DNA of 64,000 bases. Origin: Microcyclospora pomicola. Its lineage: Eukaryota > Ascomycota > Dothideomycetes > Capnodiales. The notes beneath the pieces are model-generated. The model saw only the letters and a list, made by a program, of their open reading frames with translations. It was not told where the DNA came from and did not search any database. Shown here piece by piece: positions 12,843 to 49,395 of this stretch (its first letter is position 1; every line of letters starts with the position of its first letter). The stretch is from assembly GCA_002786065.1 (NCBI GenBank), contig NHNY01000024.1, positions 4,030 to 68,029 of the forward strand. Direction: 5' to 3'. The translations under genes and the position numbers were made by a program.

Positions 12843-13699
12843 CGTAGCTTACGTATTGTTTGTACTAGTAGAAATATGATTTTGTTAATAGTTAAAGGAA
12901 GGAAGTAATGTAAAGATCTAATAGTAAAAGCTTTAGTATAGCAAGCAAAAGCTACTAGTTATTAAAGAGAATTAGAAAGTAGTTTGTCTCGCTAGTAGTA
13001 AACAAGTCTTTGTGCATATACAAACTAATAGCAGTAGCTAGTAATAGAATGTTGTTTATCTAACATATACTAGTAAGTTAGAATAGGGGAAGTAAAGCTA
13101 TAAAGTAAAATAAGAAGGTTGCAAATCAGCAAAGCCTAGTTATATACGTAATAGAGCTAAGTCGCGCTAGTTTGTACATACTATAATTTTCGAAGGTGTA
13201 ATAGCTTAATATGCTTATATATTCTATATATGACTTTAGAGAATAGTCTAGGTAAGATAGCAACTCTATCTGCTATCGATAGGTCTTAGAAGCCTTTGCT
13301 AATAAATGCTTTGTTTATAGCTATTTTAGTACTATATAAATTTGATTTCCTTTGAAACATGCTTATCTCTAGTGCTATAGTAGCTATAAAGCTCTTAACA
13401 ATACTATGTATATCTTCTAAAGAGTATCTATTATTCTTCGAATTATATCCTTATTTTAGACGATATTACCTATAATGCATCTTATATAGCTAGAAAGATA
13501 AGTTAGAATACTCTCTAAATCTATATAGGCCTTTTAATAATACTACTAGAAGCACAAAGCCTAAGCAAAAAGTCTTATTCCTAGATGTACCTAGTTTAAA
13601 ACAATTAGGACTATATGTTTACAAATTAGCTATACACAATATGTCCTCGCTGCTATTAGTAGCTTTTAAACCCTAAATCAGACTCTAAACTCCCTACTC

Positions 13700-14437
13700 T
13701 AAACTTTTAAGAAGTCCTAGTAGCCTCTATCTCCTACTCTATTGTTCTCTATCTTAACTACATTTGTCCTATGTTCCTTCTTAGCCGCGCGTTAAAACCG
13801 CTTTGTACTACTACTTCTTCATCCTTTTTAAGGCTGTTAATAGGTAGATTAGCTACATATAATCCTATTATTAATCTAGAGACAATTTCTATAGGCACTA
13901 TCTACGAAGCCCTCGATAGTATAGTATTCCTTTTGTTATATTAGCAATAGTTATACAGTTAGAATAAGTAATCTTATATTAAAGGGGCTATAAGTATATT
14001 GCTCCTCCTTTATCTACTAGGTAAAAGTCCTTTTCTTCTCCTCGTAACAGTCGTAGGGCTCTCCTATAGGTTTGTCGCTACTAAAGCTAGTTAGTCCTAC
14101 GTATTACTAGAAGCACAAATTGTACATACCGAGACTAGGCGATTAATAAGTTGATAAAGTTCTTAAAGCTAGGCATTATAGTTAGGCTATTAGTTAAAGT
14201 ATAGCGGACGAATCTCCCTTTGTTCCTAGATAACGCTTCTTTCTAGGTATTGTCGAGGCGGACTCTAAGATCTTCGATCTATATAATGTTAGCTATGTCT
14301 AGTAAGCTGTAATAAAGAACTTACCTTATCCTTTCTTAGATCTAATACAGCTACACTATAATTGTCCTTAGGCCTTTTAAATAGATAGTGCAAGCTATAG
14401 TTAGAGTAATCGTCTTCTGTAGCAGTAGGGGCTATCT
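13700..14437 (-). pseudogene. Transposon cargo copy 3' (Cys-rich, DUF3716-like), decayed
   Basis: This matches the right-copy gene at 43,275-43,990 on the opposite strand. Both share the unusual 5' leader (compare 14,440-14,600 with 43,105-43,275), the first splice donor, and the block ending in a Tyr-Arg-Asn-Cys motif (13,880-13,930 against 43,795-43,850). It has many breaks. Its function is unknown. Confidence 0.55.
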
Positions 14438-14914
14438 TTTATACGTATAGATTCTTTAAAAGTTAAGTAGCTATTATAATATAGGAAGATCGAAGAAGGT
14501 TAGAGATAATTGTTGTTAGAAGGTAAAGAAGAGGTTAAAGAAGAGGTGTTAATGTAATAGAGGATAAGGAAACAGATTAAATCACCGTAATTGCTGCCTA
14601 AACAACATATTCTTTATTATATACATACTATAGCTAACGAGTGTGTATTACAAACTATATAAACAGTCCGACTAAAGGCTAGAAGTGAATAAGGAAGGTA
14701 GTAGATAAACTGCTAAGGTAGAAGCTATATCGACTAATAATAGCAGGGGGCAATAGCTAGAGCATACATTGTACATACAGAGAGGCTTTTAAACTTAAAG
14801 ATGCTATAGAGGAAAGTAGCGTTAGAAGACTTAGTTACATTAAGGAATCTTACTAGGCAGTATACTTATATAATGTGAAGGCTAGATGCTCGAGCACGCT
14901 CTTCTAGTTCTAAG

Positions 14915-15840
14915 GTTAACGATTGTACATGTCGTATATTCTATCGTCCTTCTATTTAATTGCGTATAAAGCTTATTAAGAAAAATGCTGAAATGCAGTT
15001 AGATTAGTAAGTATGTTAGGCTAGTGATTTTAGATCAAGATGTTTCGGACATGCTTGCTACTAGACTACCGATGATGTATATAGTATAATTGCTAGCCCC
15101 TAGCTTAGATCTAGCAAGATGCGAGCTAGGAAGAATACTGAATTGCCCCTAGGCTACCGACTGCTCGAACCTACAAATCTTTATTTAGGGAATCTTAGCA
15201 TAGCTAGAGCGAAAACGCTAGATTGTGCAGGCCGTATATTTGCTAGTTCTACAATTTGCTCTAAGAACTAGAAACTCGGGAATGCTACCGAATCTTGACT
15301 AGGCTAGTAACTACATCGACCTACGAATCCTTCTTTAGAGAGCCTTTATGCAGCCACGTCTAGACGGCCGGATTGTGCAGACCGTATATAAGCTAGTCCT
15401 ACATCTATCTTTTAAAACTAGAAAATTAGGGGCGCTGCTGAATCTCGGCTAGGCTAGCGACTACATCGACCTGTAGATTGTTCTTTAGAGAGCTTCTGTA
15501 CGGCCGCGTCTAAACGGCCGGATTGTGCAGACCGTATATAAGCTAGCCCTACATCTATCTTTCGAAACTAGAAAATTAGGGGCGCTGCCGAATCTCGGCT
15601 AGGCTAGTAGCTGCATCGATCTCTACGCTCTTCTTTAGAGAGTCTTATTGTAGCTATAGCTAGAGCGGATTATTGTACAGACCGTATATTTGTTAGATCT
15701 ACGCTAATAACTAGAAAATTAAGTCTTAGAAGACAGCTAAATCTCGACTAGGCTAAAAACTACATCGACTCTCTAGCTCCTTTACTAGGGAATACGTTGC
15801 TTACATAATATAGATCCGTAATTGTACCTGCGCTATGCCC
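14915..15840 (-). repeat. Array B': seven units of 150 bp in the left transposon copy
   Basis: An ATTGTRCAGRCCGTATAT-type box (reverse complement of the box in the right copy) starts at about 14,922, 15,071, 15,222, 15,372, 15,522, 15,672 and 15,821. The steps are 149, 151, 150, 150, 150 and 149. Each unit also carries a CTAAATCTCGGCTAGGCT-type segment. The array has the same place and unit number as array B of the right copy. Confidence 0.85.
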
Positions 15841-15982
15841 GCTCTTCTATTGCTTAACATAAAGACGATATTAATTATAAGGCATGCTAGATTCTTCGAT
15901 CTTGCCTCTTTTTATACTAGGCTCTATATATATGTATCGAAAACTATTATTATTAAAAGTAGCCCTATAGTTTAGTAGTCTA

Positions 15983-16155
15983 CTACTTAGGATCTCTCTA
16001 ATCGAGTAGGCTTTGTGCCTGTTCTAAGCGCTTTTCTACAGTTAGGAAGAATTCTAGTCTACTTATTATTAAGTAAGTAGACTCGACTCTTCCTAATTGC
16101 AGAAAAGCGCTTAGAATAGGCTTAAAGCCTACTTAATTAGAGAGATCCTAAGTAG
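15983..16155. mobile_element. MITE-like hairpin inside the left transposon copy
   Basis: Two arms of about 80 bases starting CTACTTAGGATCTCTCTAAT form a near-perfect inverted repeat around a loop of a few bases near 16,070. The corresponding place in the right copy (about 41,600-41,830) lacks it, so it is a later insertion. Arms this long with almost no spacer suggest a foldback MITE. A TA lies directly left of it but the right flank reads CA, so a TA target duplication is unproven. Confidence 0.6.
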
Positions 16156-16544
16156 CACATTTTTGTTCTTTATATCACAACAAGACCGAGACTAGATTGT
16201 ATAGCTTGTATATAGATTCAAATTTGTTTTTAACTAAGTTTAATAGTATATAGGTTGGTTTATAGACTATATAGATATATATATATGTTTAAGACTGTAA
16301 TATACTAAACAACATTACGTAATACTTAAAGACTTGTTTAAACATTGTATATATCGAAACTTGTTCTAGAATCGGTTTAAATATTTTATTAACTTAGTAA
16401 CTCTAAAAGCTAAATCCCTTAAGTAAATTAACCCCTTTAGTCAGAACTATACCTTAGAGCTGTATGTTTATTATTAAAGCTAGCTCTGCATCTGTAGCAA
16501 TTCCTCTTATTCTCTTAAATACTATAGCTCTATCTTAGATAGAC

Positions 16545-17265
16545 CTCTGTTATCCTTACCTTTTCGAATTGCTTAGATCTCCTTTACTCTAGGATCCCGA
16601 ACAACACCCTTAGCTAGCTTTATAAGCTTCGATTCGCGACTAGACCTAGTTATACAGAGATAACCTCTAGTAACAGGGTCACTTTAATCGACAAGGCGGC
16701 TGTTAGGAAACTCGCATTATAAGGCTTAATTGTTAAAGGTACAGTTTCTATAGGCAGATTTTAAGCTCCTATCCCTTATCTTGTAGTTCTTTTCGAAGTT
16801 TAGCATTTATTATATAGTTAGAAAGTAGAGACTACCTACCTTAAAAAGTCCTTTTCCTTCTCTATATCTCTTATAATTAATCTACTATCCTCCTAACTTT
16901 ACGGTTTTACTACTGTTTCTATTAGCTTTGTTCTCTAGACTTAGTAGCTATAGACAGTTATACATACCGACTCTAGATAAGCAATACATTAACATAACTT
17001 AGTCAGTTCTATACTATGTCCTTATAGAAGTTCCCTAGATCATAAAGAACAACAGGCTAAGATCGCTTTTTTAGAATTTCTTCCTAGCTATAGCTACGAT
17101 TAAATCCTATAGCTTTTAGCTATATAATGTTAGTGTTCTATTATATAGGTATAGGAAGACCTAGCCTTAAACACACATGCGATTTATCTATAACAAGTAT
17201 ATACTCCTCCTTACTATGCTGATTTTAAGTTACGACAACGAGTTTAGAAGCGTCTGTAGGCATAG
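16545..17265 (-). pseudogene. Transposon cargo copy 2' (Cys-rich, DUF3716-like), decayed
   Basis: On the minus strand this starts with the same Met-Pro-type beginning as the right copy at 40,806. It keeps the RNCTFNN-type segment (16,720-16,760 against 41,315-41,340) and the tail with a GTTCGGGATCCTAGAG-type block near 16,595. It is decayed. The same intron positions can be proposed as in the right copy. Confidence 0.55.
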
Positions 17266-18104
17266 CGCTTTGTAGTAGAGTTATACTAGTAGAAATCTAG
17301 GGTTTAAAGCTATTAAAAGGTATAAGGTGTAAAGAGGAGGTAGATTCAAAGTTGTTATATATAAGGTTTAAGTAGATTAAAAGGAAAAGGATTATATAAT
17401 GTTATAGTTTGTTAGCGACTAAACAAGAGATTGTACATATGCAAACTGTTACCTACTAAAGACAATGGTCTACGCTAAACTCGTGCAAGTAAAGTGCATA
17501 TAATGCTGATTCTAAATTGAAACCGATCTCGTTAAGTAAGTAGTAACAACCCTAAAAGGACCTAAATGCATTGCTAGGGCTGCTGCTAAGCGCAGTTGTA
17601 TTGTATAGAGCGATTTAGCAGAGTTTTAGGGGGTTATAGATGTTGTTAGATTCTAACATTAAAGGCTAGATATGATCTAGGTATATTAAGCACTCTAACA
17701 AACGTGCTAATAGATTGCGCTATAGTAACCTTTCGTAGATTACCTAGCGTTGTGTAGCTTGTAATTCCGGTTAAGCATTCTATAAGCTAGGGTCGAGGCT
17801 CTAAGGATGCTAGATAATATACCCCTAACCTTGATTATAGAGCATTAAGACATTAATACGTACGCTTTTCAGCTTATAGCCCTAGTTGTTAAGTACTATA
17901 ATGCCGTCTGTACATTTCGAAAAGTATAGCGAAATGTGAGTAAGACTAACAAAATCACATTATATTACTTTTTAGACTCTAAGGGCTAGTAGAAAAGACA
18001 ACTCCCTAATCGCACCTGCTCGTTAAGGTTATCCGCTGCTATTAATCTAGAATGTAAATATATAAACCGTTTATAAAGCCTACATCCCTCTCTAAGCTCC
18101 TAAG

Positions 18105-18870
18105 ACCTTCCTCTAGTTTCCCTGCGCTTACTGCTAGAGTTAGACAAACCCTCCTCTATGTTTCCTTTCCTAGCTGTATACCGCGCTGCTCTATCCCTCG
18201 CTACCCTATCGAGCTTCTCTTGTTTACGCCTTTTCTCCTCCTCTATAGCCTTATAAGTATTAGAATGCTCGTATATTAGCTTATTACTAACCTAGACGCA
18301 ATTTCTACAGGCATTGTCGAGATTGCCCTCGAAGACCCTATAAGTCTATAGACCGTTAGCGCGCTATTGTACATATAGAATAGTTAAACTTACTCTAAAT
18401 AGGCCTTGTTGTTTACGCTATACTACCTTGTTATCTACCTAGCCTTTAAATAATAGTTCATAGCAATAATAGAAATCCTCCTACTAGGTTCTACTATAAT
18501 AACAAAGGTTAGCTCTATCTACATCGTTACGAGGGGATTGTACATACCGACTCTAGACGATTAATACATCTTAGTAGTTTAAACAGCTATAGTCGAGGCT
18601 CTCGAAGGTATCCTAACAATCCTTACAAATCTTAAATGCTGTTCCCTCGTTCTGCTCTAACAGCTAGATCTGATCTTCGTTTAGCGTGACTCTAAGTTCT
18701 TGTAGCTATATAATATTAGCCTGGATTTATTAGCGAAAGTAAATAAAGAAATACCCTGTTTCTATTAATATGCAGATATAGTTAGTTCTAATTTCTAACC
18801 TTCTTCTTTTTGATTAGCGCCTTAAGATTAAGTACCGCTATGCTAAGTGCTTTGTAGTAGTGCGTTGTAC
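18105..18870 (-). pseudogene. Transposon cargo copy 1' (Cys-rich, DUF3716-like), decayed
   Basis: This matches right-copy gene 1 (39,190-39,970). The Cys block with an Asn-Cys pair (18,300-18,345 against 39,735-39,775) and the Ser/Gly/Lys/Arg-rich tail (18,110-18,165 against 39,900-39,960) are nearly the same sequence. It is decayed. Confidence 0.55.
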
Positions 18871-19329
18871 AGGTAGTTTTGTTAAGAGGATTAGGGCTAA
18901 ATAGTAGTAGAAGGGCGGAGGAAAGTTAGAGCAGATAGTATTTGTAAGGTAGAAAGAAGGTTAGGGAGAAGATGTTATTAAAAGGAATGTCGAGGAAACA
19001 GGAAGAAACGTAGTTTTTAGATATAAATAGTTACTGCTGTTTTATGTACAGAACGCAGCTAATTACATTAGCTAACACTATTAACTAAAGATAGCTATAG
19101 TAAAGAATGATTAGTAAGTAAACTAAACTAAACTAATATATAAAGGGTAATTGCTTACTAGCCTAAAGCTATTAATAAGTAAGGAATGTATATGCCGAAA
19201 GCATAGTAAATAGAGTTCTGCTATAAAGGAAATTAATGTTAGATAGATAAGTAAATAAGATGCAAAATCTAAGTCTACAAAGCAAACTTAGATTTATGAA
19301 ATACCTGTAGTATTAATTTAGAGTACTAC

Positions 19330-20260
19330 GTAAGGATTGTACAGACAGTATATTTGCATACCTTTTAATCAATGCAAGCGAGAAGTTCCTTAGGAGACAT
19401 GCTAAATCGCTACAAGGTTAGTAGCTTAATAGCTATAGTAAGGTTTAATCCCTACATACTTATATAGCCCTCTTATATACCGATAATTATGTATACAGTA
19501 TATTTTGTAGTCCTTTAGTTTAGATATTAAACAAGCAATCTAGGAGAAGTGCTGAATTGCAGCTAGGTTAGTAAGCGACACAGCCTAATGTCTTTAGGTT
19601 AAGGAGCCTTATAGCTACTAAGCCTTATAAGGTAGACAATGTACGCTGTATAATTGCTAGCCTTGTAACTAGACTAAGCTAATAGTAGCTTAGGGGCACT
19701 GCCGAATTACTTCTAGGCTGCTGACTGCATCGACTAGTAGAATTATGTTTGCCGAGCTTTCCTAACGCTAGAGCTTAAACGCAAGATTGTGTACACTGTA
19801 TAATCGCTAGCCCTTAGCTTAGACCTAGTAAAGCATTACTAGGGAAGAGTACTAAATCTCGCCTAGGCTGCCGACTTTATTGACCTAGCGATACTTCCTC
19901 TAGGAGCTTTTCTATAACTAGAGCTTAAAAGTAGGATTATACACGCCGTATATCCGCTAGTCTACTGCTACGCTAAGTAAGCTAGGATTTAGGAGAGAGG
20001 CTAAATCTTAGCTAGGCTGCTAACTACATCGACCTATAGACTCTTACTCTAAGGTCTTTTAACTAGCTATAGCTAGAGAGCATAATTATACATGCTATAT
20101 ATTTGTAAGATGTCTACGTAAACCCTAAAGATTGATATCTAGAAGAAGTGCTAAATCTTAGCTAAGCTGCTAACTGTAGCAGTTTCGGAGTTTTTCTTTT
20201 AGAAGCTATCCTAAGGCCTAAGCTATAGTACGCGATTGTATAGACTATATAGCTCCTTAT
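19330..20260 (-). repeat. Array A': seven units of 150 bp in the left transposon copy
   Basis: The ATTGTACAG...TATAT box begins at about 19,336, 19,486, 19,637, 19,786, 19,936, 20,085 and 20,235, with steps of 149-151. Unit number and spacing equal those of array A of the right copy. Confidence 0.85.
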
Positions 20261-20763
20261 TCTTAGCCTTCCTTATACCTAATATAATTTGTGTCCTTCC
20301 TAAAGCTATTGCCGAATTGCTGCCTAGATATAGATTAGATAGATCTATATTATCTAAATCTCGCAAATGTATAGCTTCTCTTCTTCTAGGCTATTGTATA
20401 TATTATATCTTATACGACCTATTAATTAGTGCATTATAGACTCCCTAGAGACTGTAGATAGCATAACTGTGATTTGAAAGCTTAACGTAGGCTTCGAGTT
20501 AGTAGAGGGTAATGCTTTTTTCAGACAGAATTTAGTAACTAACTATACATACTATGTTCTCAATTCTAGCGCTATCTAAGATAGCAATGTTTTGATAGTT
20601 TAGGGATAGTTATAGCGAGGCTTTAATAGGTTAGGTATAGTAATGTCATAACGTAAGACAAGTATAGATAAATAGGAGTCCTACTAATAGACTATTTTAG
20701 ACCTTCACCGCCTTCAGTAACTAATGTACATTTGGTTTATCATTACAGAGTTTTAAAATGATT

Positions 20764-20838
20764 ATTGTAAGCGAGGCGCGAGCGGGAAGTAGCGAACCCA
20801 AAACTGATGTGGCCCAAAATCCGTTATGACCCACCGTA
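20764..20838 (-). repeat. Terminal inverted repeat of the left transposon copy
   Basis: The reverse complement begins TACGGTGGGTCATAACGG. It agrees with the left end of the right copy at about 65 of the first 70 positions, and similarity continues for a further 80 bases or so inside. The six bases after it (20,839-20,844, GCGAGA) are the predicted target duplication; the partner end is not in the window. Confidence 0.85.
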
Positions 20839-36646: not shown

Positions 36647-36971
36647 GCACGTAAGCTATGGCATGGCATAATAATATCGATGACTTCACCACTAATGACT
36701 GCTTGTGGTGAATGCAGGAATATCAGTACGGATGGACATCTGGGGAAACATGGATGGTTCCGTGACAGCCAGACCGCCCATCTGCTGATGTACATAGCGA
36801 TCAATGGGGGAAGCATCGTGATGAATGAGCATATTGCTCTTGCCTTTGTCCTTGCAGCATGTGCTCTTGATATCTATCGCAGATGCGAGCCCGACCTACC
36901 TTGATCCTCAGTAGTGGAAGCAGCGAGCAAGCACAGCATGTGAGCTTACGTGTAGGTCATCCAGACTAAGG
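36647..36971. other. Intergenic region between the metallopeptidase-like gene and the transposon
   Basis: 325 bases of host promoter region. No coding sequence or repeat is supported. The six bases that follow it are the transposon target duplication. Confidence 0.5.
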
Positions 36972-36977
36972 TACACG
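36972..36977. repeat. Target-site duplication, left (TACACG)
   Basis: TACACG lies directly before the left terminal repeat, and the same six bases follow the right terminal repeat at 49,390-49,395. A 6-bp duplication marks an insertion by a transposase that cuts with 6-bp stagger. Confidence 0.85.
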
Positions 36978-37047
36978 TACGGTGGGACATAACGAACTTT
37001 GGGTCACATCAGTTTTGAGTTCGCTACTTCCCGCTCGCGCCTCGCTT
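36978..37047 (+). repeat. Left terminal inverted repeat of the right transposon copy
   Basis: Begins TACGGTGGGACATAACGAAC. Over 70 positions it agrees with the reverse complement of the right end at about 61. Confidence 0.9.
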
Positions 37048-37433
37048 ACAATAATCATTTCGCAGTTCTGTAATAATAATCCATATGTACATTAGTAACC
37101 AAAGGCGGTGAAGGCCCAGAATAGTCCATTGGCAGCTTTCCTATCCATTTGTGTTTCTGTAGCTCTGTGACACAACCATCTTTAAACCATCAAAACATCG
37201 CTATCTTAAGTAGCATCATCATTAAGAACACAGTATGTACAGTCTGTTAATAATGTCAATCCTCAAAGAGCATCGCCGCCTACCGAACCGACGCCCGCAC
37301 CAAATTGTTATATAAAGGTTATCCTATCTCGAGTCTTTAGGGAGTCTCCCTTGTACCGATTGAACTGCTACAAAAGATACGACATGTACAATAGCACATA
37401 AGAAGAGAGGCTACGTGATTGCGAGGTCTAGGG

Positions 37434-37457
37434 AATATAGATCAAAATTGATCTATA
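37434..37457. repeat. Subterminal palindrome of the transposon
   Basis: ATATAGATCAAAATTGATCTATAT-type palindrome. A related palindrome stands at about 20,315-20,350 in the left copy, after the same GCGAG-type flank. Its retention in both copies suggests a role such as transposase binding or hairpin formation. Confidence 0.6.
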
Positions 37458-37799
37458 TCCTAGTAGCAACTTAGCAAGAGCTTCAGGAAGGATAAAAATG
37501 GCGCTGAACGTAGAGAAGGGCAAATATCGGGCTGCACAACTGTTAAAGAAAAGCCTAGATAGCGTAAGGTTGTCCGGTTTGTAGATCCCTAGGTAAAAGC
37601 ACTTACTAACCTAGAAGTATTTCAGTGTACTCTCTAAATCCTAGCTTGTGATGCTTAGGGTGAGGACAAGTGTCTATATAAAGCGTATAATCCTACGCCT
37701 AAGCTTAAACCTCTAAGGAATCCTCCTAAAAAGATTCTTGGATTCAATACAGTTAGTAGCCTAGCTATGATTTAGCATTCCTCCTAAATATCGATTTAT

Positions 37800-38745
37800 A
37801 GGGTTTAGGTAGACATCTTGCAGATATACTGCGTGTACAATCGTCCGCTCTAGCTATAGCTAGTAGAAAATCCCTAGAGCAGGCGTCTATAGGTCAATGC
37901 AGTTAGCAGCCTAGCAGAGATTTAGTAGCGCCTCCGAGTTTCCAGTTCCTTAGGATGGTTGCTAGATCGGCAAATATACAGTATGCATAATCTTGTCTTC
38001 TAGCTATAGCTGCGCAAAAGCTCCTTGAAAAGAGAATAGAAGGTCAATAGAGTAGGCAGCCCAGCCGAGATTCAGCAACATTCCTAAGTTTTTAATTGCA
38101 GAGGACAACCGTAGGGTCAGCAAATATACCGCCTGCACAATCCGACCGTCTAGCTGTGGCTGCGCAGAAGATCTCCGAAGCAGAACCTACAGGTTATTAG
38201 AGTCAGCAGCCTAGCCGAGTTTCAGCAACACCCCCGAGTTTCCAGTTCTAGAGGATAATCGTAGGGCTAGCAGATATACCGCCTGCACAATCTAGCCGTC
38301 TAGCGGTAGCTACGTAGAAGTTGTCCGAAGCAGGACCTCTAGGTTAATAGAGTCGGCAGCCTAGCTGAGATTCAGCAATGCTCCTAAGCTGCTACTGGCT
38401 TGGTCTAGTTGCAAGGCTAGCAACTATATAGTGTGTATTAACTACAGTGTAAGGCTTAGCAGTTATGAAGCTCCTTAATCTACAGACATCAAGCTGTGCT
38501 ACTTACTAGTCTAGCTGCAATCTAGCATTCCTCCTAAGTCGCTCATTTCCTGTCCAAATTAGAAGGCTAGGGAATATACGGCATGCACAATTATTAGGGT
38601 AGGAGGCAGTCACGTACAAACGCGGGGATCACACCTTTCGAAGGCCGTTAAGCTGCCACCCTGTAGCGATCCAGCATGTTTCCTAAGCATCTTTCTGCAA
38701 GCACTAAGTGTATAGCACGCAAATATACTATCTGTATAAACATAG
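37800..38745 (+). repeat. Array A: seven units of 150 bp
   Basis: The box ATATAC-n3-4-TGYACAATC starts at about 37,825, 37,974, 38,124, 38,274, 38,424, 38,574 and 38,723, with steps of 149-150. Each unit also contains a CCTAGCYGAGATTCAGCAA-type segment and a TCTAGCTATAGCTGCGCAGAAG-like segment. Units diverge by base changes but hardly at all by length. Confidence 0.9.
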
Positions 38746-39189
38746 TATAACGCTCCACTTAGACTTTAATGGCGTTCAAGAATCTTACCTGCTTTGTAGA
38801 TTTTAGTCCTGCCCCTTATTTGCTTATCTGTCTAACATCCATTTCCTTCACAGTAGAACTTCGTTCGCTACGCTTTCGGCATGTACATTCCTTACTCGTT
38901 AATAGCCCTAGGCTAGTAAGCAAGCATCGCTTATGTGTTGGTTCAGTTTACTTGCTAATTATTCTTCACTACAGCTATCTTTAGTTAACAGTGTCAGCTA
39001 ATGCAGTTAGCCGTCTTCTGCACATGAAAGGGCGTTGATTGTTCACGCTTAAACGCTTTGTTTCTTTCTATTTCCTTAACATTCCTTTCGACACTATCTT
39101 CTCCCTAACCTTCTCTCTACCTCACAACTATATCTGCTCTAACATTCCTTAGCCTTCCTACTGCTATTCAGTCTTAATCCCTCCTTCGA

Positions 39190-39970
39190 ATCTACGTGTA
39201 CAACGCAGCATTAAGCAGAACTCAGCATAGCGGTCCTCGACCTCAAGGCGCTTATTAGAAAGAAGAAGGTCAGAAATAAGTACCGGCTACATCTTCACAT
39301 TAACGGAAACAGGGTATGTCTTTATTCACTCTAGCTGATAAATTTAGGCTGACATTGTATAGCTATAAGAGCTTAGAGTTACGCTGAATGAGGATCAGAT
39401 TTGGCTGTTAGCGCAGAACGAAGGACAACTATTTGAAATTCGTTAGGACTGTCAGGATACTTTCGCAAGCCTCGACTGCAGCCGTTTGAACTACTAAGAT
39501 GCATTGATCGTCCAGAGTCGGTATGTACAACTCTTTCGCAATGTTCTGAATACAGCTAACCTTTGTTATTATAGTAGAACCTAGGAGGAGGACTTCTGTC
39601 ATTACTGTGAACTATTGTTTAAAGGCTCGGTAGATAACAAGGCTGTTCAGCGCAAACGCAAAGGCCTATTCAGAGTATGTTCAACGATTCTACATGTACA
39701 ATGGCGCGCTAACAGTGTGTAGACTTGCAAGGTCTTCGAAGGCAATCTTAACAATGCATGTGGAAATTGTATTTAGGTTAGTAACAAGCCATCGTGTAAG
39801 CATTCCAACACCTATAAGGCTGCGGAGGAAAAGAAAAAGCGTGAATAAGAGAAGTTGGACAAGGTAGCGAAAGACAGAGCGGCGCGGTATAAAGCTAGGA
39901 AAGGAAACTTAGAGGAGGGTTTGTCTAACTCTAGCGGCAAGCGCAGGGAAACTGGAGGAGGCTCTTAGGT
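39190..39970 (+). pseudogene. Transposon cargo gene 1 (Cys-rich, DUF3716-like), decayed
   Basis: Introns are recognisable by GTATGT donors and GCTAAC or GCTGAC branch sites: about 39,313-39,361, then 39,521 to about 39,580, and one inside the Cys domain at about 39,671-39,719. The predicted parts give a basic first exon, a middle exon ending in LIVQSR just before the donor, then a Cys domain with C-x(n)-F followed by TCKVFEGN and ACGNC, and a Ser/Gly/Arg-rich tail. The Cys spacing resembles the fungal domain DUF3716. The first Met is not found. Function unknown. Confidence 0.6.
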
Positions 39971-40805
39971 ACTCAAACAGAGATGTGGGCTTTACAGACG
40001 GTTTGTGCATTTGCATTCTAGGTTAAAGACAGTAGATAACCTTAACGAGCAGGTCAAATCAGGGAGTTGCTTTTTCAGTTAGCCTCTGGACTTCAAAAGT
40101 AATATGTTATGATCTTAGTTGTCTCCCTTACTTCTCGCCGTTTGTTTCCGAATACACAAAATGCATTATAGCCCCTAGCTATTAGGACTGTAAGATGGAA
40201 AGTACTTGTATTAAGGTCTTACTACTCTACAATCGAGGCTAGGTATATTTTATCTAGCATCATCAAAGCCTCGACCTGGGTCTTTGGAATGTTTAACTGG
40301 AATTACGAGCTGCATAACGCTAGCTAACCTGCAAAACGACTATTATAGTAGAATATCTCAACACACTTAGTAGAGTGCTTGATATACCTCGATTACATCT
40401 AAGCTTCAATGTTAGGACTCGATAGCAATCCTAACCCTCTCTAGCGCCACAGAATCACTACGTACAATACAATCGCGCTTAGCTGAAGCTATAGCAATGC
40501 TTTTCAATCATTTTAAGGTCGTCGTTACTTACTTAGCAAGATCATGCTCACTTTAGCATCAGGATCATATGCACCTCACTTGCACAAGTTCAACGCAAGC
40601 CATTGTCTTCAGTAGGCAACAGTTTGCACATGCACAATTCTTTGTTCATCCGCTAACACACCAAAACCGTCCTCGTCCCTCTGTTCTTCAGTTCACTCAA
40701 ACTTAGACCTAACAACATTTGGTCTACCTCTTTTATATACCTTATATCTTCTAACATCTTGCAACCCTCGGTTTCTACTAGTATAACGTCTTTATAAAGC
40801 GCTAT

Positions 40806-41580
40806 GCCTGTAGACGCTTCTAAACTCGTCGCTATAATTCGAAACCAGCAAGGTGAAGAGGAATATGTGCTTGTTGTAGATGAAACGCGTGTACGTTTAA
40901 GAGCCGATCGTTTCCATACCTACATAGCAGAGCGCTGACATTGTACAGCTGAACAATGTAGGGCTTAATCGCAGTCGTAGTTAGCAAGAAGTTCTAAAAA
41001 AGCGAGCTTAGCCTGTCGCTCTTTGGAACCTAGCCAACTTCCGCAAGGACACAATACAGAATCGGGCAAGTCATGTCGATGCATTGCTTATCTAGAGTCG
41101 GTATGTACAATCTCTTTTAACTGCGGAGCTAGGAGAACATAGCTAACTGAAACAGTGGAAAGGTTGTAAAGTTAGGAGAAAATCAGATGAACTGTAAGAG
41201 ATGTAGAGAAGAAAGAGGGCTCTTTAAGGTAGATGCATTCTGCTTTCCAACTGTACAATGATTGCTAACCTTAGAAAGGAGTGCAAAACTAGAGATAGGA
41301 CCTTAAAACATGCCTGTAGAAACTGTACCTTCAACAATTAAGCCACACAATACGAGTTTCCTAACAGCTGCCCTCTAGATCAAAGTGACCCTATCGCTAG
41401 AGGTTCTGTCTGTACAACTCGTTCTAGTCGTGAATCCAAGCCTTTAAAGCTGGCTAAAGGTGTTGTTCGGGATCCTAGAGCAAAGGAGATTCAAGCAATT
41501 CGAAGTGGTAATAATAGCAGGGCTTTGTCTTAGAGGGAGTTACAAGAGGAAGAGGATGAGCAGCTAAGGAACAGCTAGTT
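40806..41580 (+). pseudogene. Transposon cargo gene 2 (Cys-rich, DUF3716-like), decayed
   Basis: A TATAAAG box lies eight bases before the ATG. Exon 1 (MPVDASKLVAIIRNQQGEEE and on) ends at a GTACGT donor near 40,890, and the acceptor is a TTGTACAG near 40,948. The next exon ends at GAGTCG before the GTATGT donor at about 41,100. The Cys domain is split by an intron at 41,221-41,266: CKRCREERGLF before it, and EC...ACRNCTFNN after it. The pattern C-x2-C-x6-F-x2-C-x10-C-x2-C resembles DUF3716. It is the best preserved of the four but has several in-frame stops. Confidence 0.65.
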
Positions 41581-41849
41581 TTAGTGAACATGCTGCAGCT
41601 CTAAGTTATGGGTTTGATTAAGGGGTTTGGTTTCTTAAGGGAGTTTGGTGTTTTAGAGCTTCAGGTTTAATAAAGCTTCTATAAAGATCCTAAATCATAT
41701 TTCGAGATGTACAATGTTAAAGCAAGTCTTTGAATGACATTTCAAACTGTCTGCTACAGGGTATCTACTGACATATATATATAGTCTTCTATCAAAAGGG
41801 GTGAGCTTAGCTGAAATTGAGCAGCTCCCCTAAGTTTTTAGGACTAGAA

Positions 41850-42795
41850 GACAGCTATAAAACGAGCTAATATACGGTCTGTACAATCGCGTTCCTAAGC
41901 TTTGACTACGCAGAAGCTCTGTGAACAAAGAACGGAAGGTCGATACAGCCGCCAGCCTAGCTGAGATTCAGCGGCCCCCCGAGTTTCCGATTCTCGAGGG
42001 TAACTACTAAACGAGCAGATATACGGTCTGCACAATCTAGCGGTCTAGCTATGGCTGCGCAAAAGCTCCTTGAAAGCAATTTCGACAGTCGATACAGTCG
42101 CCAGCCTAGCCGAGATTCAGCAACTCCCCTAAGTTTCCGGTTCTCGAGGGTAGCTACTAAACGAGCAGATATACGGTCTGCACAATCTAGCGGTCTAGCT
42201 ATAGCTGCGCAGAAGCTCCTTAAAGGCGAAATCCGACAGTCGATACAGTCACTAGCCTAGCCGAGATTTAGCAACTCCCCTGAGTTTCTAGTTCTAGAGA
42301 ACAATCGCAGGCCTAGCAGATATACAGTCTACACAATCCATCTGTCTAGCTAGGGCCGCGCAAGAATCCTCTAAAGCAGAATCTATAGGTTATTAGATTC
42401 GGCATCCTAGCCAAGATTCAGCAAGTTCCCCGTCTTTCCAATTCTAGGAGATGATCGCAAGGCCAGCAAATATACGGACTGTACAATCTGGCGCTTTTGC
42501 TTAAGTTATACTAAAACCCTGCAAAAGACGGCTAGTAGGTTACAGCAGTTAGTAGTCTAGAAGCAATCTAGTATTCTTCCTAGATCACATCTTGCTAGAT
42601 CTAAGCTAAGGGCTAGCAATTATACTGTATGCACGATTACTAGTCTAGTGGCAAGCAGGTCTAAAGTCTCTTAATCCAAAACTACTAGCCTAACATAATC
42701 ACCGACCTATCTTCATTTTAGCACTCTCCCTAGCTAGTTTATCACGAGTCCAAATCGTGCGGTAATAAATTTTACCGCCTGTACAATGTTTGTTC
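41850..42795 (+). repeat. Array B: seven units of 150 bp
   Basis: The same box starts at about 41,870, 42,019, 42,169, 42,320, 42,470, 42,620 and 42,770, with steps of 149-151. It lies about 4,045 bases after array A. Units 2 and 3 are almost identical (ATATACGGTCTGCACAATC), suggesting recent local exchange before decay. Confidence 0.9.
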
Positions 42796-43274
42796 GGCGT
42801 CAGCGCAAATCGATTATGTTCAGTTCCCTGACTTTCACATCACATAAGTATACAGCCTAACAACATTTCTTGATATAGCTAAGTCACCTAATGCTGTCTT
42901 CGCTCGTAGCATCCTTTCATTCGGATAGCTTTCCAGATGTACAATGTATGCCTCGATGACTACCTTCTATCTACGTCAGACAACTTAGTTCTTATCTCGG
43001 CGGTTCACTCGCCACCCTCCTCGTTTACTTCTACTTCAATGCGACTGTTCACGAGCCTTATAACACACGCTCGTCACCTGCAGTACGCATATAACAAAGA
43101 TCGCGTTGTTTAGGCAGCAATTAAGGCTATTTGATCTATTCCTTTGTTATTTACTATATCAACACCTCTCCCCTAATATCTTCTCCACCTTCTAACAACA
43201 ATCATCTCTAAGCTTCCTCGATCTTCCTACTCCACAACAGCTCCCTAACCCTTACGAAATCTACATGTACAAAA

Positions 43275-43990
43275 GATGACGCCTACTTTCCAGGAAGACG
43301 ATTCCCTTGACTATAGTCTTGACTATCTGTTTAAGAAGGCTAAAGATAATTTTGGTGTAAATGCACTAGATCTGAGGAAGGATGAGGTACGTTCTTTTAC
43401 AGAGCTCAGCAGGCAAAGCTAACATTGTACAGATCCAAAATCTTGGAGTTCGCCTTAACGATAAGCAGAAAGCAGCGTTGCTCGCGAACAAAGGGAAATT
43501 CGTCCGCTGCCATTCTAGCAATGTCCCAACTATAAAGCCTAGCTCTAAGAACTTCGTCAACGCATTGATCGCGTAATCACGGTATGTACAATTTACTCCA
43601 CTAGTAATGCGCAGGACTAACTCGCTTCAGTGGCGAGAAAATGATATTAGAGGTCTATACCTGTTGTGAGGAGAAGGCAGTGACTTTCAGCTGGCATGAT
43701 AGGCAGACTCGCTTAACTTATAGCCCATTCGAGGTAAGACCAAAGAATCCTGCTATACAATCATTGCTAACAAGAATGTAGCACTGTCACGCTATCGAAG
43801 GCTTTGCGGATAGTGCCTATAGAAACTGTCTCTAGACTAATAACAGGTTTTTGTGCAGCCGGTCTGGCTATCAGAAGACTCTGCAAGGATAAAGAGGAAG
43901 CTGTATAAAGCGGTTCCGACGTGCTATAGAGAGAGAACATAGGACAACTGCAGTCTAGCTTAAAGACAATAGAGTAGGACATAGAGGCTT
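43275..43990 (+). pseudogene. Transposon cargo gene 3 (Cys-rich, DUF3716-like), decayed
   Basis: The ATG at about 43,275 opens an acidic first exon (MTPTFQEDDSLDYSLDYLF) that ends at a GTACGT donor near 43,388. The middle exon after TTGTACAG (about 43,432) holds an open stretch of about 45 residues ending in NALIA before the GTATGT donor at 43,582. The Cys domain is split by an intron at about 43,735-43,790, followed by CHAIEGF and YRNC. It follows the same exon plan as the other copies. It has stops and is not functional. Confidence 0.6.
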
Positions 43991-44862
43991 TTAGGTCCTC
44001 CTAAAAAGTTTAGAGTAGGGTGTTTAGAGTTTAGATTTGCTTTCAAAGACAATTAGCGGCAAGAGGGACATATTGTGTATGTTCAATCTGTTGACATGCA
44101 GCCCTAACGGTTTAAAACTAGGCACATCTAGGAATCAGACTTTTAACTTAGGCTTTGTGTTTCTATAGGTATCTTTAAAAGGTCTTTAGATAATTCAGAG
44201 GTGTTCTATCCCACCTTTCTAACTGTACAAAATGTATTGTACGTGATGTAGTCTATAAGCTAGATGTAGCTTAGAAGTCAATCAATACTCTTCAAAAGAT
44301 ATATACAGTATATTCACGAAACTTGGCGACACCGTAATCTTAAGAAAGAGTATGTATCAAGGGAGACTAAATTTGTGCAGTCTAAAAACATCTAGTAGCA
44401 AAGCACGACTTGGCAAATCCTTCTAAAACCAATCGACAGTAGATAGAGTTGCTTTCTTACCTAAACCATTCTTAATGATTACACATAGAAAGTATGAACA
44501 CCTTAAGTCATTGCGTATCCAATACTTATTGCATGTACAAAGCAGCGCTACTAAGATGCGTTCTATATATGCCCAAATTCTGCTGATTCTTACTTATCTT
44601 TTTTCACTTTATAGCTTCACTTCCTCTGTAGCTAGACAGCATATGTCAACTTCCTATTGCTAGCTACCCTTAATAGTTTACACATGCACAAAGACTAGTT
44701 CACTATTGACAATACAAACTACTTCTTTGTTCACTACAACAGTTAGTACCTTTTGCTTGCTATACTAAACCTTTTATTGCCAACCTCTACATCTTTTCCT
44801 CCCTCTAATTATTAACAACATTATATTTCTACTAGTACAAACAGCACGTAAACAACGATGCT

Positions 44863-45620
44863 GTTCACGCCTTAATTACTCCTCGATCTGCCGGAGCAGT
44901 CTAGTAAAGATGAGCTTGTTCTTGCTATGACAAAAGAGAGGGTAAGTGGACTTTAGGAGCTTTGTAGCAACACTGTCTAGGACTAATAGATTGTACAGCT
45001 AAACAATGCTAGATTTAATATAAATAGTCGCTAGGAAGAGATGTTCAAAGGCCCAGACTACTTTGTCTTTCTTCGACACCTAGAGGATTTCGATCTAGAC
45101 ACAATTCGCAATCGTGCTAGCTATATCAACGCACTGATCATCTAGAGTCGGTATGTACAAAGTTTTCCGCATCTCAGCAACTTAGAGGCTAACCGAAAGC
45201 CACAGGGGAAAGATCGCGAAGCATAACAAAGTAGCAGTAGAGTGCTTAAGATGTGACGATGGAAAAGGACATTTCAAGGTTTGTAAACTACCTTTTTCGA
45301 GCTGTACAATGAAAGCTAACCGCTAATTAGCAATGCGCTACTATAGCTAGGAAGACAAACACAGCTTATAGAAACTGCACCTTTAATAACTAAGCCTCGC
45401 TATGTGTTTTTCCAAACTATAGCCTGCTAGACAACAGCGACTCTTTAGCAGAAGCAAGCAGCTGTACAACTCGTTCCGGGCGAACTGTTAAGCCTCGCCA
45501 GCTTGCGGATAGGGTGGTTCGGGATCCAGGAGCGAAGGAGATCCAGAGTCTTCAGCGTAGCAGGAGTTTAAGAGAGGCAGCTAAGGAGATTAGCAACATC
45601 TCCAATAACAGCCGTGACAA
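44863..45620 (+). pseudogene. Transposon cargo gene 4 (Cys-rich, DUF3716-like), decayed
   Basis: It starts at an ATG near 44,863. The first intron ends in TTGTACAG near 44,998. The second exon codes for an RNRASYINALII-like end before the GTATGT donor at 45,151. The Cys domain reads CLRCDDGKGHF, then an intron at about 45,281-45,331, then QC...YRNCTFNN. The tail shares a GTTCGGGATCCAGGAGC-type block with gene 2, so genes 2 and 4 are sisters and genes 1 and 3 correspond by position. It is decayed. Confidence 0.6.
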
Positions 45621-45930
45621 TCTTTTCTAAAGGTACAATCAGGTGCAATCAGGAAAGAGGCATAGAATATACATTATAGAGTGATACAATGGAGGTGGAG
45701 AAGGAAAGTACGAGTGTTTTATTAGTGTAGGTTTGGTTAGTAACTTCGAGATAAGAGCTATACAATAAGGTTTCAGCCTTAAAACAGATCTTAAGCTGCT
45801 AGCTTCTATCTTTGATTTAGATGCAAAACCATAACATTACTACTAGACTTTGTCTAATTAGTTGAGAAGTCTATCAATTCGCTACTTCATTTCACTGTTC
45901 GTCTATTGTACATCTTAAAACAATACAGCA

Positions 45931-47640
45931 ATGGCTCCAAATACGCTGATCGACCCGACGTTCTATGTAGAGCTTTGCGACCGATTCCAAAATCAAGGCG
46001 CTACATACAAAGCACTTCAAACCTGGCTTTTCCAATGCGGTATAATAGCTTCTACGTGTACAATCAAACGCACCATCGCAAACCTTAGAGCGCAGAAGAA
46101 CAAATCGAATCCAGACACGCTATTTCTCCGAGTACTTATTAGTACCTTGTTCTATGTGGATAACTAGTCGGACAACGAAATAGTAGAGAGCCTTCAATCC
46201 TAAGCCAATATTGTAGTCAAACCGTGGAGGATTGTACAGATTAGAAAGGCTATAGGCTTAGTAAGAAGACTATAAGCAGACCAAATAGCAGAAAAATCAG
46301 AGATGATGAAGGACATCATCCGTAAAGAGCTTGATAAAGGGGAGGTTATACTTTATAGCCGTACATTCATGATTACGTATTTGAAGCGTCATGCCAGCCT
46401 ACACATCTTAAGGCATGCTCTAGTTACAAAATCAAAATCTACACATACTAATAATCTTGATTAGGCATACATTAGATCGCCTTTTGCGCGACCTTGACCT
46501 AAACAGCGTGTACAATAGACGTAATGTTGTGGACAACCGTCGGGGCAGATATATAACCTCTGGTCTAAACGCTGTATGGTCTATCGACGCGCATTGTAAG
46601 CTTGAAGAGTTCGGCATCCAGATCTATGCTGCAATCGATGCCTACTTAAGAAAGGTAATATAGACATATTGCGGAATTTCGAGCCGTACATCAGTGTCTG
46701 TACTAGCACAGTTCGTTAATGTGCTTGATACACTTCGGGTAGCACTAAAAGTTATACAGTTAGACAAGGGAAAGGAGGTACTGCTAATGGCAGATGCTCA
46801 GTTTACAAACGCTAAATCGATGCGTACAAACGACATAGCGTTTCGCGATTGCTATGTCTTTAGCACTAGCACATCCAATTAGCGTGTTGAATCGTAGTAG
46901 AATCAATTAAGTGGAAGATCACTATAGGTCTGGCGTGTAAGTAAAGTCTAATTTGAGCTGCAGTCCTAGCAAGATCTGACATGTACAATTGACGTTATAG
47001 ATACTGTTCCGGAGATATGCTACAGAAGGCTTGTACAACAAGAATCTCGCTGCTGACCGTATCGCACTACTCTACATCTATATGCTAGTACTTCGTGGTA
47101 TTGTGAAGCGGTTCACAACGATGTGGAATGTACATCCGATCCGGAAGCAAACTAACTGGCCTTAGGTTAAGGCTGGGAAGCTAGAAACCCTATATGCTAA
47201 CACTACTGTTGTGGATTGTAGGTGTCCGGTTGACGCAACTCTGGTAGCTAATTTGCGCTACGCGTGCGAGGGTTTCGGTATGTACAAAACATAAACTAGC
47301 GGTTATAGACAGACTAAATTTCTGACATGGTAGGCAAATCTTAGATATGGACGAATACCTTCTAGATACAACTATAAGCTTTTGTAAAAGTTTGCTGCAG
47401 CGACAGGGTATTTTGTATTAGCTAGCCGATACGATGGCTTTTGTACAGTCGGTATCAATGCGCAAACACGAGCAAGGGTTTCGTGTTCTTCAAGAAGCGC
47501 TTATAGAGTACGTGCTGCATAATCCTACAACACCCTTGTTAGAGACTAGAGCTCTATACGGAGGATTAATGTAGGGCACGGTATTAGAGCCCGTAATGGC
47601 GGTGTACAACGAGATTGTGCGAGCCCCGCACAGTGCTCAA
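45931..47640 (+). pseudogene. IS3EU-like integrase-type DDE transposase, decayed
   Basis: Starts MAPNTLIDPTFYVELCDRF. A helix-turn-helix-like segment with TIKRTIANL lies near residue 48. The catalytic region shows WSIDAHCKL (first acid, near 46,580), a segment with YAAIDAY, QLDKGKE (second acid, near 46,763) and an STSN...RVES segment (third acid, near 46,880), followed by TTMWNVHPIRKQTNWP near 47,115-47,160 and a DMDEYLLD segment near 47,350. This order is that of eukaryotic integrase-like transposases with the W-x-D-G-x-x-K-L signature. A possible intron lies near 46,425-46,466 and another starts at the GTATGT at 47,279. Several in-frame stops make this copy dead. Confidence 0.78.
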
Positions 47641-47949
47641 GCTTTTGAAATGCTACCTAATCGATTCGATATATAGTTAGGTAAAGATCTTGATTTCTCA
47701 TTTCCAAAGGTCAATTGCACAATAGTCAAGCACAGTCTTACTTCAAACACTTTGTACACGCCGAAAACAACTTTTTCATCATGAAATTCTGGTGTCCAAG
47801 CCTCGCCTGCAAGGTAAATCCTAAGATCGACGACCACAGCACTTATTTCTTCATAATAGACTAATGTCCAGCTTGCGGACTTCGCAATCCGATTCTGCTA
47901 TCAAATCGGCGTGTACAAAACTCGAAACACACAGCGCTCTTAAGAACAA

Positions 47950-48840
47950 TGTCTTATGCTAAGGTAAACGTGATTGATCTTGTGGACGATAACGAAGACA
48001 CACCAGAGGCCGCACTAGCCCAGTAGGTCTACTAAGGCGGATTAGCAAACTTGCTCCAAAACAGATCAGCTGTACAATCTAGTTACGATATGATCGCTTA
48101 TCGTGACCGTGCTAATACAGTTAAAAAAACGATTTTGGATGCTAGCGCTGCACTAGTGTCTTAGCAAACCTAAAGACTAGCTTTCGAGCCTTTAGCAACG
48201 ATGTTAAAGCTAAATCTAACTGTACATTGCTTCATTAGACGCTACAATGTAGATTCTGAAGACGTGGATGGTCGTAGGACTTACAACTGGTTCAGACATA
48301 GTATGGTTGCGTAGAACCCTACCCTCATTTTCTGATTTATCTCGTTACTAAATGCTACTGTACAATCTTAGACACAGCCGAAATAGGCAGCATCAAAGAC
48401 TTCAAGTCACACAATTAGGGACATTTTCTCGAAACAATATCCGAGGAATTCGATCTCTATTCCTTCGTACACTACAAAGACAACAGTCGAATCTTCGTAA
48501 GCCTTATGTACAATCTAGCAGGGAGACAGCTAGATCCGATAAGAGTTTAAGAAAGGGCATTTAGAGATACTACTCTCTCGGAGCTTCTACAGCATGACTT
48601 CAAGACTGACAGAAAGAAGAACCATAACATTTGGATATTCTGTGAGCGTCCTGAGCCTAGAAACGCACTGCACAATGAACTAGAAGTTGAATATAAGGAG
48701 AAACCAAAGCCTGTGACTACTAAAGCCTCGAAAAAGGACCAGAATTCAAAGCTAAAGGCGAAGCCTAAGAAGAAGTCTGCACCTAGCCAAACAGTCAAGC
48801 AAGAAGATAATGTACATGTACAATCGATAATTGAATAAGA
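47950..48840 (+). pseudogene. Transposon accessory gene of unknown function, decayed
   Basis: Starts MSYAKVNVIDLVDDNEDTPE near 47,950. A middle part near 48,190-48,310 encodes an MLKLNLTVHCFIRRYNVDSE-type segment. The last part (48,550-48,838) is open for about 90 residues and very rich in Lys, Glu and Pro, with a basic KLKAKPKKKS stretch that could bind DNA or act as a nuclear signal. I recognise no domain. It is broken and its exon structure is unclear. Confidence 0.45.
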
Positions 48841-49319
48841 TTGCTTATAATTGATTTATATGTCACAGAACACAGCTGTGAAAGCTAAGCCAAGCTAAGA
48901 GCTTGCACTAGGTTTGACTAAGAGCCCTACAGCCAATCTTCTAGATGTTAGTCTATTCGTCAAACAAGTATTTAAGCTGTACAACTCTCTCTCTGTCGCA
49001 TCATGTACTGACCATTATCTAGAACACCCTACCGAATAGATTACACAAACGCTTAATGTCAGACTTAACTATCTCACCACCGCGCGAAAATGATGATTTT
49101 AGCTTCGATATGGACGCTTATCTTGCCCCTGCTGATTGTACACGTAGTAAAAAGAGTCGTCGGTGATTTTGGCGGGTCAGTGCTTGTAATGACTCTGAAG
49201 TGCAAATCTTCGTTCTGTATGCGAAGGGCAAAGACTGGGAACACGTCACGTGTGGCAGAATGATAGCAGTGTTTTGTACATATGCTTACGTATCACGAAG
49301 GGGGTAGTTGAAATATGAC

Positions 49320-49389
49320 AAGCGAGACGCCAGCGGGAAGTAGTGAACCCAAAACCGATGTGACCCAAAATCTGTTATGACCCACCGTA
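49320..49389 (-). repeat. Right terminal inverted repeat of the right transposon copy
   Basis: Ends GTTATGACCCACCGTA, the inverse of the left end, over about 70 bases. Confidence 0.9.
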
Positions 49390-49395
49390 TACACG
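49390..49395. repeat. Target-site duplication, right (TACACG)
   Basis: Identical to the six bases before the left terminal repeat at 36,972-36,977. Confidence 0.85.

Follow-up and report, generated by a model that had tools for sequence, protein, structure and literature searches.

Background

VANC of Arabidopsis is an element-encoded protein that binds a dense, family-private motif and removes silencing (PMC5735166; PMC10398659). The VANC protein carries DUF1985 and DUF287 domains (PMC5735166). IS3EU DNA transposons are recognized by TAYGG..CCRTA ends, 6-bp target-site duplications and a DDE transposase (PMC12730594; PMC10045372), and the linker DNA of yeast reportedly varies in length by steps of one helical turn (PMC2522279). 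The present analysis concerns a 64,000-nt stretch of the Microcyclospora pomicola genome (assembly GCA_002786065.1, contig NHNY01000024.1, positions 4,030 to 68,029 of the forward strand), termed the window, and within it a complete IS3EU-type DNA transposon, termed R. The hexamer TGTACA runs through R from end to end as a lattice with a period of about 155 bp, its gaps step by about one turn of DNA, and the longer motif of which it is the core is kept by selection irrespective of coding phase.

The TGTACA family is like the VANC/VANDAL elements in that the family is rich in its own short motif while related families use others (PMC5735166; PMC10398659), and the high density of its motif is confined to the element. 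The element-encoded binder has been demonstrated for VANC (PMC5735166; PMC10398659), whereas it is supposed for the TGTACA family. VANC21 motifs are mainly non-coding and often in tandem repeats (PMC5735166); TGTACA, by contrast, runs through open frames, i.e. 44 of the 47 sites in R are outside the wide limits of its tandem arrays and 21 of the 51 sites in a second copy, C57, are in open frames. The words “spacing” and “nucleosome” are absent from the main text of PMC5735166, whereas TGTACA is found at nucleosome-length whole-turn steps. Since TGTACA is not confined to non-coding repeats, membership of the VANC system is not claimed, and VANC would serve as the nearest functional model.

The one-turn steps are shared with the linkers of yeast, which display a genome-wide statistical property of nucleosomes (PMC2522279), whereas the TGTACA steps are the motif spacing of one mobile element. 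Introners located in nucleosome linkers (PMC9860276) also combine mobile DNA, splice-like sequences and nucleosome-sized spacing; unlike introners, the TGTACA sites show no inserted sequence and the motif is also present inside open frames. IS3EU elements, including Styx of Zymoseptoria, share with R the TACGG..CCGTA ends, the 6-bp duplications and the DDE core (PMC10045372; PMC12730594; PMC10853768). The portions of these three articles that were available mention no motif lattice, and the elements are compared by description, not by sequence. In a literature search that took in few subscription papers, no such motif lattice in a transposon was found described among the matches listed, and none of the 20 matches listed, of 38, for TGTACA together with transposon looks relevant by its title and the start of its abstract.

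Enrichment and periodicity of TGTACA

The element, its lattice and its two tandem arrays are as follows.

36978..49389, no strand assigned: complete IS3EU-type DNA transposon, copy R, with terminal inverted repeats, TACGG...CCGTA ends and a 6-bp duplication
37086..49280, no strand assigned: TGTACA lattice in R, 47 exact sites from 37086 to 49275, with single gaps of 138, 148–152, 158–162 and 171–176 bp
37744..38428, no strand assigned: left 150-bp tandem array, self-BLAST limits, 1 exact site
41804..42501, no strand assigned: second tandem array of 150-bp units, a homologue of the left one, with 2 exact sites; it exceeds its C57 counterpart by about one unit (+151 bp)

The original prediction listed 31 NGTACA sites, allowing one mismatch, with a step of about 150 bp. 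All 31 coordinates are correct (23 exact TGTACA, 8 with one mismatch) and the recurrence is real and stronger than had been claimed. R (36978–49389) has 47 exact sites, whereas 200 dinucleotide-shuffled sequences average 3.1 and never exceed 10, and 3.3 are expected from the dinucleotides. The region 44685–49389 has 25, against a shuffle mean of 1.5 (maximum 5). Over the whole of R, sites with up to one mismatch number 135 against 65 in shuffles. TGTACA is the top hexamer of R by z-score enrichment. Its z values in two parts of C57 are 16.6 and 19.3, whereas the top hexamer in eleven 4.8-kb host stretches (seven from the window and four from other loci, simple repeats filtered) reaches 4.3–6.0, with one at 9.4.

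The best period of the exact sites in R is 155 bp, with a power of 24.3 that none of 2000 random placements reaches (99.9% quantile 11.5). When the array rows of Tandem Repeats Finder are masked, 46 of the 47 sites remain and the power is 23.5; with the wider self-BLAST limits masked, 44 remain and the power is 21.8, again at 155 bp. Sites with up to one mismatch give a power of 17.4 at 140–170 bp, against a shuffle maximum of 8.9. The peak therefore extends beyond shuffled controls and survives masking, and the arrays do not account for it.

It had also been claimed that off-phase copies are very few. This is so for exact sites, where 23 of the 25 in 44685–49389 are on the list and the others are at 47032 and 48811, neither of which fits the lattice as a separate step. 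It does not hold for sites with up to one mismatch, of which there are 54 in the same region; the eight one-mismatch members were thus picked from many. Window positions 48811–48822 comprise two overlapping exact sites (TGTACATGTACA), the second of which (48817) is on the lattice.

Copies of the transposon

The genome scanned comprises 23.4 Mb in 58 contigs. Copies with two ends are R, C57:260940-273212 and C28:218259-230787, the latter two being termed C57 and C28 after their contigs. Partial copies are found on C7, C40 and C56, and in the window:

12062..20838, minus strand: left copy L, truncated, AT-rich, inverted and similar to sequences changed by repeat-induced point mutation (RIP), with a lattice of 16 exact sites

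The periodicity is present in L as well, with a best period of 157.5 bp and a power of 11.5 that 0 of 2000 random placements reach; in the test of adjacent gaps, 1 of 2000 does so. The TpA/ApT ratio is 0.81 in C57 and 0.76 in host stretches of the window, and 1.32, 1.58 and 1.70 in R, C28 and L, respectively. C57 (12.3 kb) is an un-RIPed copy with 51 exact sites, and was chosen for most tests on these grounds. RIP as the origin of TGTACA is ruled out, since un-RIPed C57 holds more exact sites than R (47) or C28 (33), and since, where relatives differ in the hexamer, the change is mostly at a position that RIP can alter.

Gaps in whole turns of DNA

The gap lengths step by about one DNA turn to either side of about 149 bp; the stepping is a property that the original prediction missed. 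In C57 the 33 gaps of 120–200 bp between neighbouring exact sites are at 138, 148–152, 158–162, 168–172 and 176 bp. Their coherence is 0.70 (best period 10.9 bp) against 0.20 for a jittered null, which reaches the observed value in 0 of 5000 trials, and the on-phase bins hold 32 of the 33. The 27 gaps of R display a coherence of 0.745 (best 11.3 bp). One-mismatch sites complete the lattice in nine of the 15 longer gaps of C57, with per-gap chance rates of 0–14%. The lattice list takes in such sites only where the chain closed (16 sites in these nine gaps) and leaves out the exact site 9916. Adding the fill-ins brings the lattice to 66 points, and its 59 single gaps have class means of 137.3, 149.3, 160.0 and 170.1 bp, with one gap of 176 bp. 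The distance from the left end of C57 to the start of its first site is 108 bp, and that from the end of its last site to the right end is 109 bp.

Conservation of the motif

A forward-strand scan of the whole genome for three exact TGTACA at steps of 136–166 bp gives 46 matches, and all 46 are in family copies (5 on contig C7, 17 on C17, 7 on C28, 1 on C56 and 16 on C57); the reversed-pattern control occurs once. Pairs of TGTACA alone are unremarkable genome-wide (118 versus 131 for the control).

C57 and C28 are 73% identical, and 29 of the 51 hexamers of C57 are unchanged in C28 compared with 13% of composition-matched hexamers. In the opposite direction 29 of the 32 aligned sites (of 33 in C28) are kept, versus 26%. 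Hexamers of C57 are also kept in R (44 of 51 versus 56%), in L (13 of 31 versus 9%) and in C7 (23 of 37 versus 43%, P 0.015). The hexamer positions that vary are mostly G and C open to RIP, and flanking positions -8 to -6, -1 and +6 are better kept as well. Lattice intervals are conserved in length, i.e. 45 of the 63 compared between C57 and C28 are equal and 8 differ by one base. The sites display an oriented motif of about 17 bp, ATTGTACA-N4-GAA, with TGTACA as its palindromic core, and 39 of the 51 are in one orientation.

The open frames of C57 (stop-to-stop, exons not proven) contain 21 TGTACA placements in all three phases (5, 5 and 11), where the hexamer is translated as Cys-Thr, as Val-Gln or Val-His, or around Tyr. 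Five of the 21 (2385, 2553, 6304, 6463 and 10165) look like splice acceptors or donors. The flank identity of 1263 interval pairs is 0.256 against an expected 0.252, in a comparison restricted to pairs at least 120 bp apart and without the 10 paralogous ones. The original prediction had taken the different reading frames to argue for selection or origin at the DNA level, and selection at this level is borne out by the three reading phases and the conservation between copies. Conservation far above background, placement in three phases and intervals that are alike only in the motif together indicate selection on DNA; the motif of about 17 bp is kept irrespective of coding phase.

At window positions 39524, 41104, 43585, 45154 and 47281, and at 40942, 43426 and 44992, the hexamer coincides with stretches that look like splice donors (GGTATGTACAA) and acceptors (TTGTACAG). 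It is as if the splice sites of the element genes were built on the lattice hexamer.

Phasing of AA/TT steps between sites

AA, TT, TA and AT steps (WW) were analyzed at 20–75 bp from each site, with the motif excluded; this test was at first exploratory and its P values are not fully blind. A non-redundant set of 41 sites leaves out 10 of the 51 in C57 (nine from paralogous intervals, plus 9916). WW steps in C57 keep a fixed phase relative to the sites: in the 10–11-bp band the maximum is 2.83 versus 0.86 for all 51 and 3.11 versus 0.95 for the 41 (both P 0.0005), and the phasing is significant in each half separately (P 0.002 and 0.001). The phases on the two sides are 0.6 and 10.1 bp, i.e. 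symmetric, and SS steps (G and C only) are in antiphase. The signal is carried by AA/TT (P 0.002). AG/CT/GA/TC give P 0.046, and CA/TG, AC/GT and GC steps display no significant phasing to the C57 sites. The left-anchored phase continues through the interval with a slow drift of 0.5, 1.1 and 2.8 bp.

Off-lattice one-mismatch sites (58) show no WW phasing (P 0.29). Phasing is also absent when anchored at the interval midpoint, or dyad (P 0.5–0.8), as is expected if gaps of 149 and 160 bp move the midpoint by half a turn. When the anchor is moved by 3–4 bp the 10–11-bp signal is lost, and at 5–6 bp it is back because the statistic ignores phase. The overall WW maximum in C57 is at 11.3 bp for all sites, 11.2 for the non-redundant set, 11.5 for the left subset and 10.6 for the right. 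For R and C28, both of them RIPed, the 10–11-bp band still exceeds the null (P 0.004 and 0.026). The WW pattern of C57 resembles rotational nucleosome positioning, and is less clear in the RIPed copies.

Encoded proteins

The regions of R that correspond to predicted proteins of C57 are given below.

45931..48838, plus strand: transposase region with DDE core (rva_4), limits inferred; C57 homologue L040:3247-3771, PF24764, E 2.9e-17; fragments and open reading frames in R
39340..39970, plus strand: DUF3716-like paralogue 1, approximate limits; C57 homologue L039:3192-3434, E 3.1e-3, 17.8 bits
40940..41533, plus strand: DUF3716-like zinc protein region, paralogue 2; C57 homologue L039:4697-5050, Pfam E 3.9e-4, 20.7 bits
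44990..45643, plus strand: DUF3716-like zinc protein region, paralogue 4; C57 homologue L040:2136-2450, E 4.5e-4, 20.5 bits
43426..43902, plus strand: possible fourth DUF3716-like paralogue, approximate limits, suggested by visual inspection of its C57 homologue, which has an ACGNC...C stretch

In the transposase of R, 20 of the 961 codons compared with C57 are stops (14 TAG and 6 TAA), as expected of CpA-to-TpA (RIP-like) change, and the C57 frames are longer. A search of the protein collection with the transposase yields 36 relatives at E <= 0.001, of which those with names are from Tuber, Letharia, Peziza, Kalaharituber and Oleoguttula; in the viral-contig and genome-contig collections no relative was confirmed. 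Solved structures give two matches to its N-terminus, both non-significant.

The DNA of 40940–41533 and that of 44990–45545 are 64% identical, and the spacing of the sites is nearly the same (162/148/159 and 162/149/160 bp). No proteins related to the DUF3716-like piece are found at E <= 0.001, and the single match among solved structures, the AMT1 zinc module, is non-significant (E 0.25). Pfam gives no match for L040:193-483, a piece of the possible fourth paralogue. The VANC domains DUF1985 and DUF287 give no match among the element pieces scanned (nine, plus eight of another ten), which cover part of the frames.

Distant relatives with another motif

A search with the DDE query finds six further relatives in the genome with 45–54% protein identity, and three of these, on contigs C1, C20 and C11, were read. 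The C1 relative (C1:1347700-1352150; L050 and L049) displays GCGAGT/ACTCGC 39 times in 4.8 kb where 4 are expected; 22 of the sites are in its open frames, giving 23 placements that use all three phases. The C20 relative (L053) is 92% identical to that of C1 over 2.2 kb and has 18 GCGAGT sites. The C11 relative is about 70% identical to C1 over about 950 bp, keeps two of the six C1 sites found there and has 10 in 7 kb; no motif of its own is convincing (GCTATA, z 7.6). WW phasing to GCGAGT gives P 0.06. The presence of a different motif throughout the open frames of the C1 family is expected if motif and binder co-evolve. Dense family-private motifs may be a wider habit of IS3EU-like elements and the regular spacing a speciality of the TGTACA family.

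Interpretation

A lattice that extends through genes and spacers from end to end and is matched to the helix suggests that the whole sequence has been shaped for a regular protein array. The best explanation appears to be an array with one nucleosome per interval, in which the linker TGTACA is bound by a protein that is probably element-encoded; the binder, the chromatin state and the benefit are inferred from sequence, and we regard this explanation as evenly poised between right and wrong. Each interval would correspond to a single nucleosome or a comparable wrapped unit, and TGTACA would be at the centre of a very short linker. The mean spacing, about 155 bp, is compatible with short-linker fungal chromatin. 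A palindromic site in every linker would imply a bound protein, and a palindrome-binding protein seated in the linkers would hold the transposon in a regular array of about 80 units that is coherent with the helix. The gaps would step by whole turns because only these give neighbouring sites an equal relative rotation, which would let the bound proteins touch each other or the fibre keep one geometry. The likeliest binder would be element-encoded, i.e. the DUF3716-like zinc-protein paralogues or the transposase. The element might thereby mark its own DNA, for self-recognition, for anti-silencing of the VANC type, or for a compaction that folds 12 kb so that the ends meet.

A fuller form of this proposal, which we hold more tentatively, is a 12-kb chromatin ruler, genes included, with an element-encoded protein in every linker of an array of about 80 nucleosomes and with the motifs as private addresses of IS3EU families. 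For DUF3716, a domain of unknown function, it points to a role in DNA binding. If true, this would be the first case known to us of chromatin-unit spacing readable as a selected motif, irrespective of coding phase, along a whole mobile element. It would also provide a natural test system for linker quantisation in vivo, for sequence-programmed arrays and for how a transposon distinguishes its own DNA from that of the host.

Several results weigh against the nucleosome array with an element-encoded linker protein. The usual period of nucleosomal DNA is about 10.2 bp, and the WW maximum of C57 (10.6–11.5 bp) exceeds it. The strongest WW peak of R and C28 is at 8.8–8.9 bp. TA alone shows no phasing to the sites (P 0.20), and the 16 one-mismatch fill-in sites alone fall short of significance (P 0.16). 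For the longer C57 gaps alone (n = 15) quantisation gives P 0.06, 6 of these 15 gaps are not closable under the allowed steps, and C57 site 9916 (window 47032) is exact and yet off the lattice. In R, C28 and L the frequency of RIP-type mutation does not vary consistently with distance from the sites, and thus no footprint of a protected linker is seen. All three DUF3716-like matches (17.8–20.7 bits) are under the Pfam cut-off of 22, and a literature search for DUF3716 found no paper. Neither period nor helical phasing of GCGAGT is found in C1 (39 sites) and C20 (18 sites).

The original prediction offered binding sites for an element-encoded protein, nucleosome phasing, or growth of the element from 150-bp units as possible meanings. 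Binding sites as such and nucleosome phasing gain indirect support from the gap quantisation and the AA/TT phasing of C57. Growth from tandem units of about 150 bp, with TGTACA as their remnant, appears extremely improbable. Two real 150-bp arrays are present inside the element, and several of the large indels between copies have roughly the length of one unit (-140, -152, +150 and +151), but the flank identity of the 1263 interval pairs is at the level of chance, the frames of the DDE transposase contain sites in each of the three phases, and the gaps are grouped at several lengths whole turns apart. This origin is rejected for the lattice as a whole by the flank identity; for the arrays and the paralogous genes it continues to hold. 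A signal acting in RNA, i.e. splicing signals or a PUF-type UGUA element, is scarcely credible either. Some sites do coincide with the donor-like or acceptor-like sequences given above, but the extended motif is present in both orientations, inside and outside open frames, and neither helical quantisation nor DNA-phased AA/TT suits a role in RNA.

Two other proposals concern the protein, and each is unlikely though far less remote than these. Palindromic GTAC-centred sites are known for cellular regulators, and a sequence-specific factor of the host could bind the lattice, in which case the transposon would exploit, or be trapped by, a chromatin organiser of the host. That the binder and the function of DUF3716 are both unassigned leaves room for such a factor, but no exact-site triplet is found outside the family (46 of 46 are inside it), and a distant IS3EU-like family that shares the nucleus is dense in another motif. 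This agrees better with element-specific binders. Alternatively the DNA might be wrapped without nucleosomes, as a chain of about 150-bp loops or a filament of transposase or accessory protein that joins the ends; we consider this improbable to much the same degree. Loop closure would give helical quantisation and the phased AA/TT would reflect pre-bent DNA, so that both observations suit short protein loops equally well. The extension of the lattice to within 108 and 109 bp of the ends and the WW period above 10.2 bp also agree with wrapping. Against it, the mean spacing is nucleosome-sized and a 12-kb lattice seems excessive for synapsis, and to our knowledge other cut-and-paste transposons manage without one.

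Family assignment and relationships of the copies

The ends and flanks of R comprise the following.

36978..37047, plus strand: left terminal inverted repeat, 70 nt, 87% complementary to the right repeat
49320..49389, minus strand: right terminal inverted repeat, 70 nt, 87% complementary to the left repeat
36972..36977, no strand assigned: left target-site duplication tacacg, 6 bp
49390..49395, no strand assigned: right target-site duplication tacacg, 6 bp

R, C57 and C28 all have the ends TACGG...CCGTA, which agree with the IS3EU consensus TAYGG..CCRTA, and 6-bp target-site duplications are present in all three two-ended copies (tacacg in R, agacag in C57, ctgcgg in C28). The ends, the duplications and a DDE core matching rva_4 place the element in IS3EU by predicted features, and it looks like a new member. 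The NCBIfam IS3 match of the transposase is weak (E 0.0012, 18.2 bits, cut-off 160). An Rfam scan gives 0 matches at gathering scores.

R groups with C57 and L with C28, and nearly all indels relative to C57 are common to L and C28. The nine indels of at least 3 bases between C57 and C28 are +31, -140, -152, +5, +9, +353, +150, -4 and +6. Near the extra 353 bp that C28 and L have relative to C57, L displays a self-complementary stretch of about 173 bp (window 15983–16155, 87%), which is perhaps a small foldback insertion.

A host open reading frame of 461 aa is located on the minus strand at window positions 35270–36655. Its sole relative at E <= 0.001 is filed under Quercus suber (58% identity over 65%), and this protein is perhaps a fungal contaminant of that assembly.

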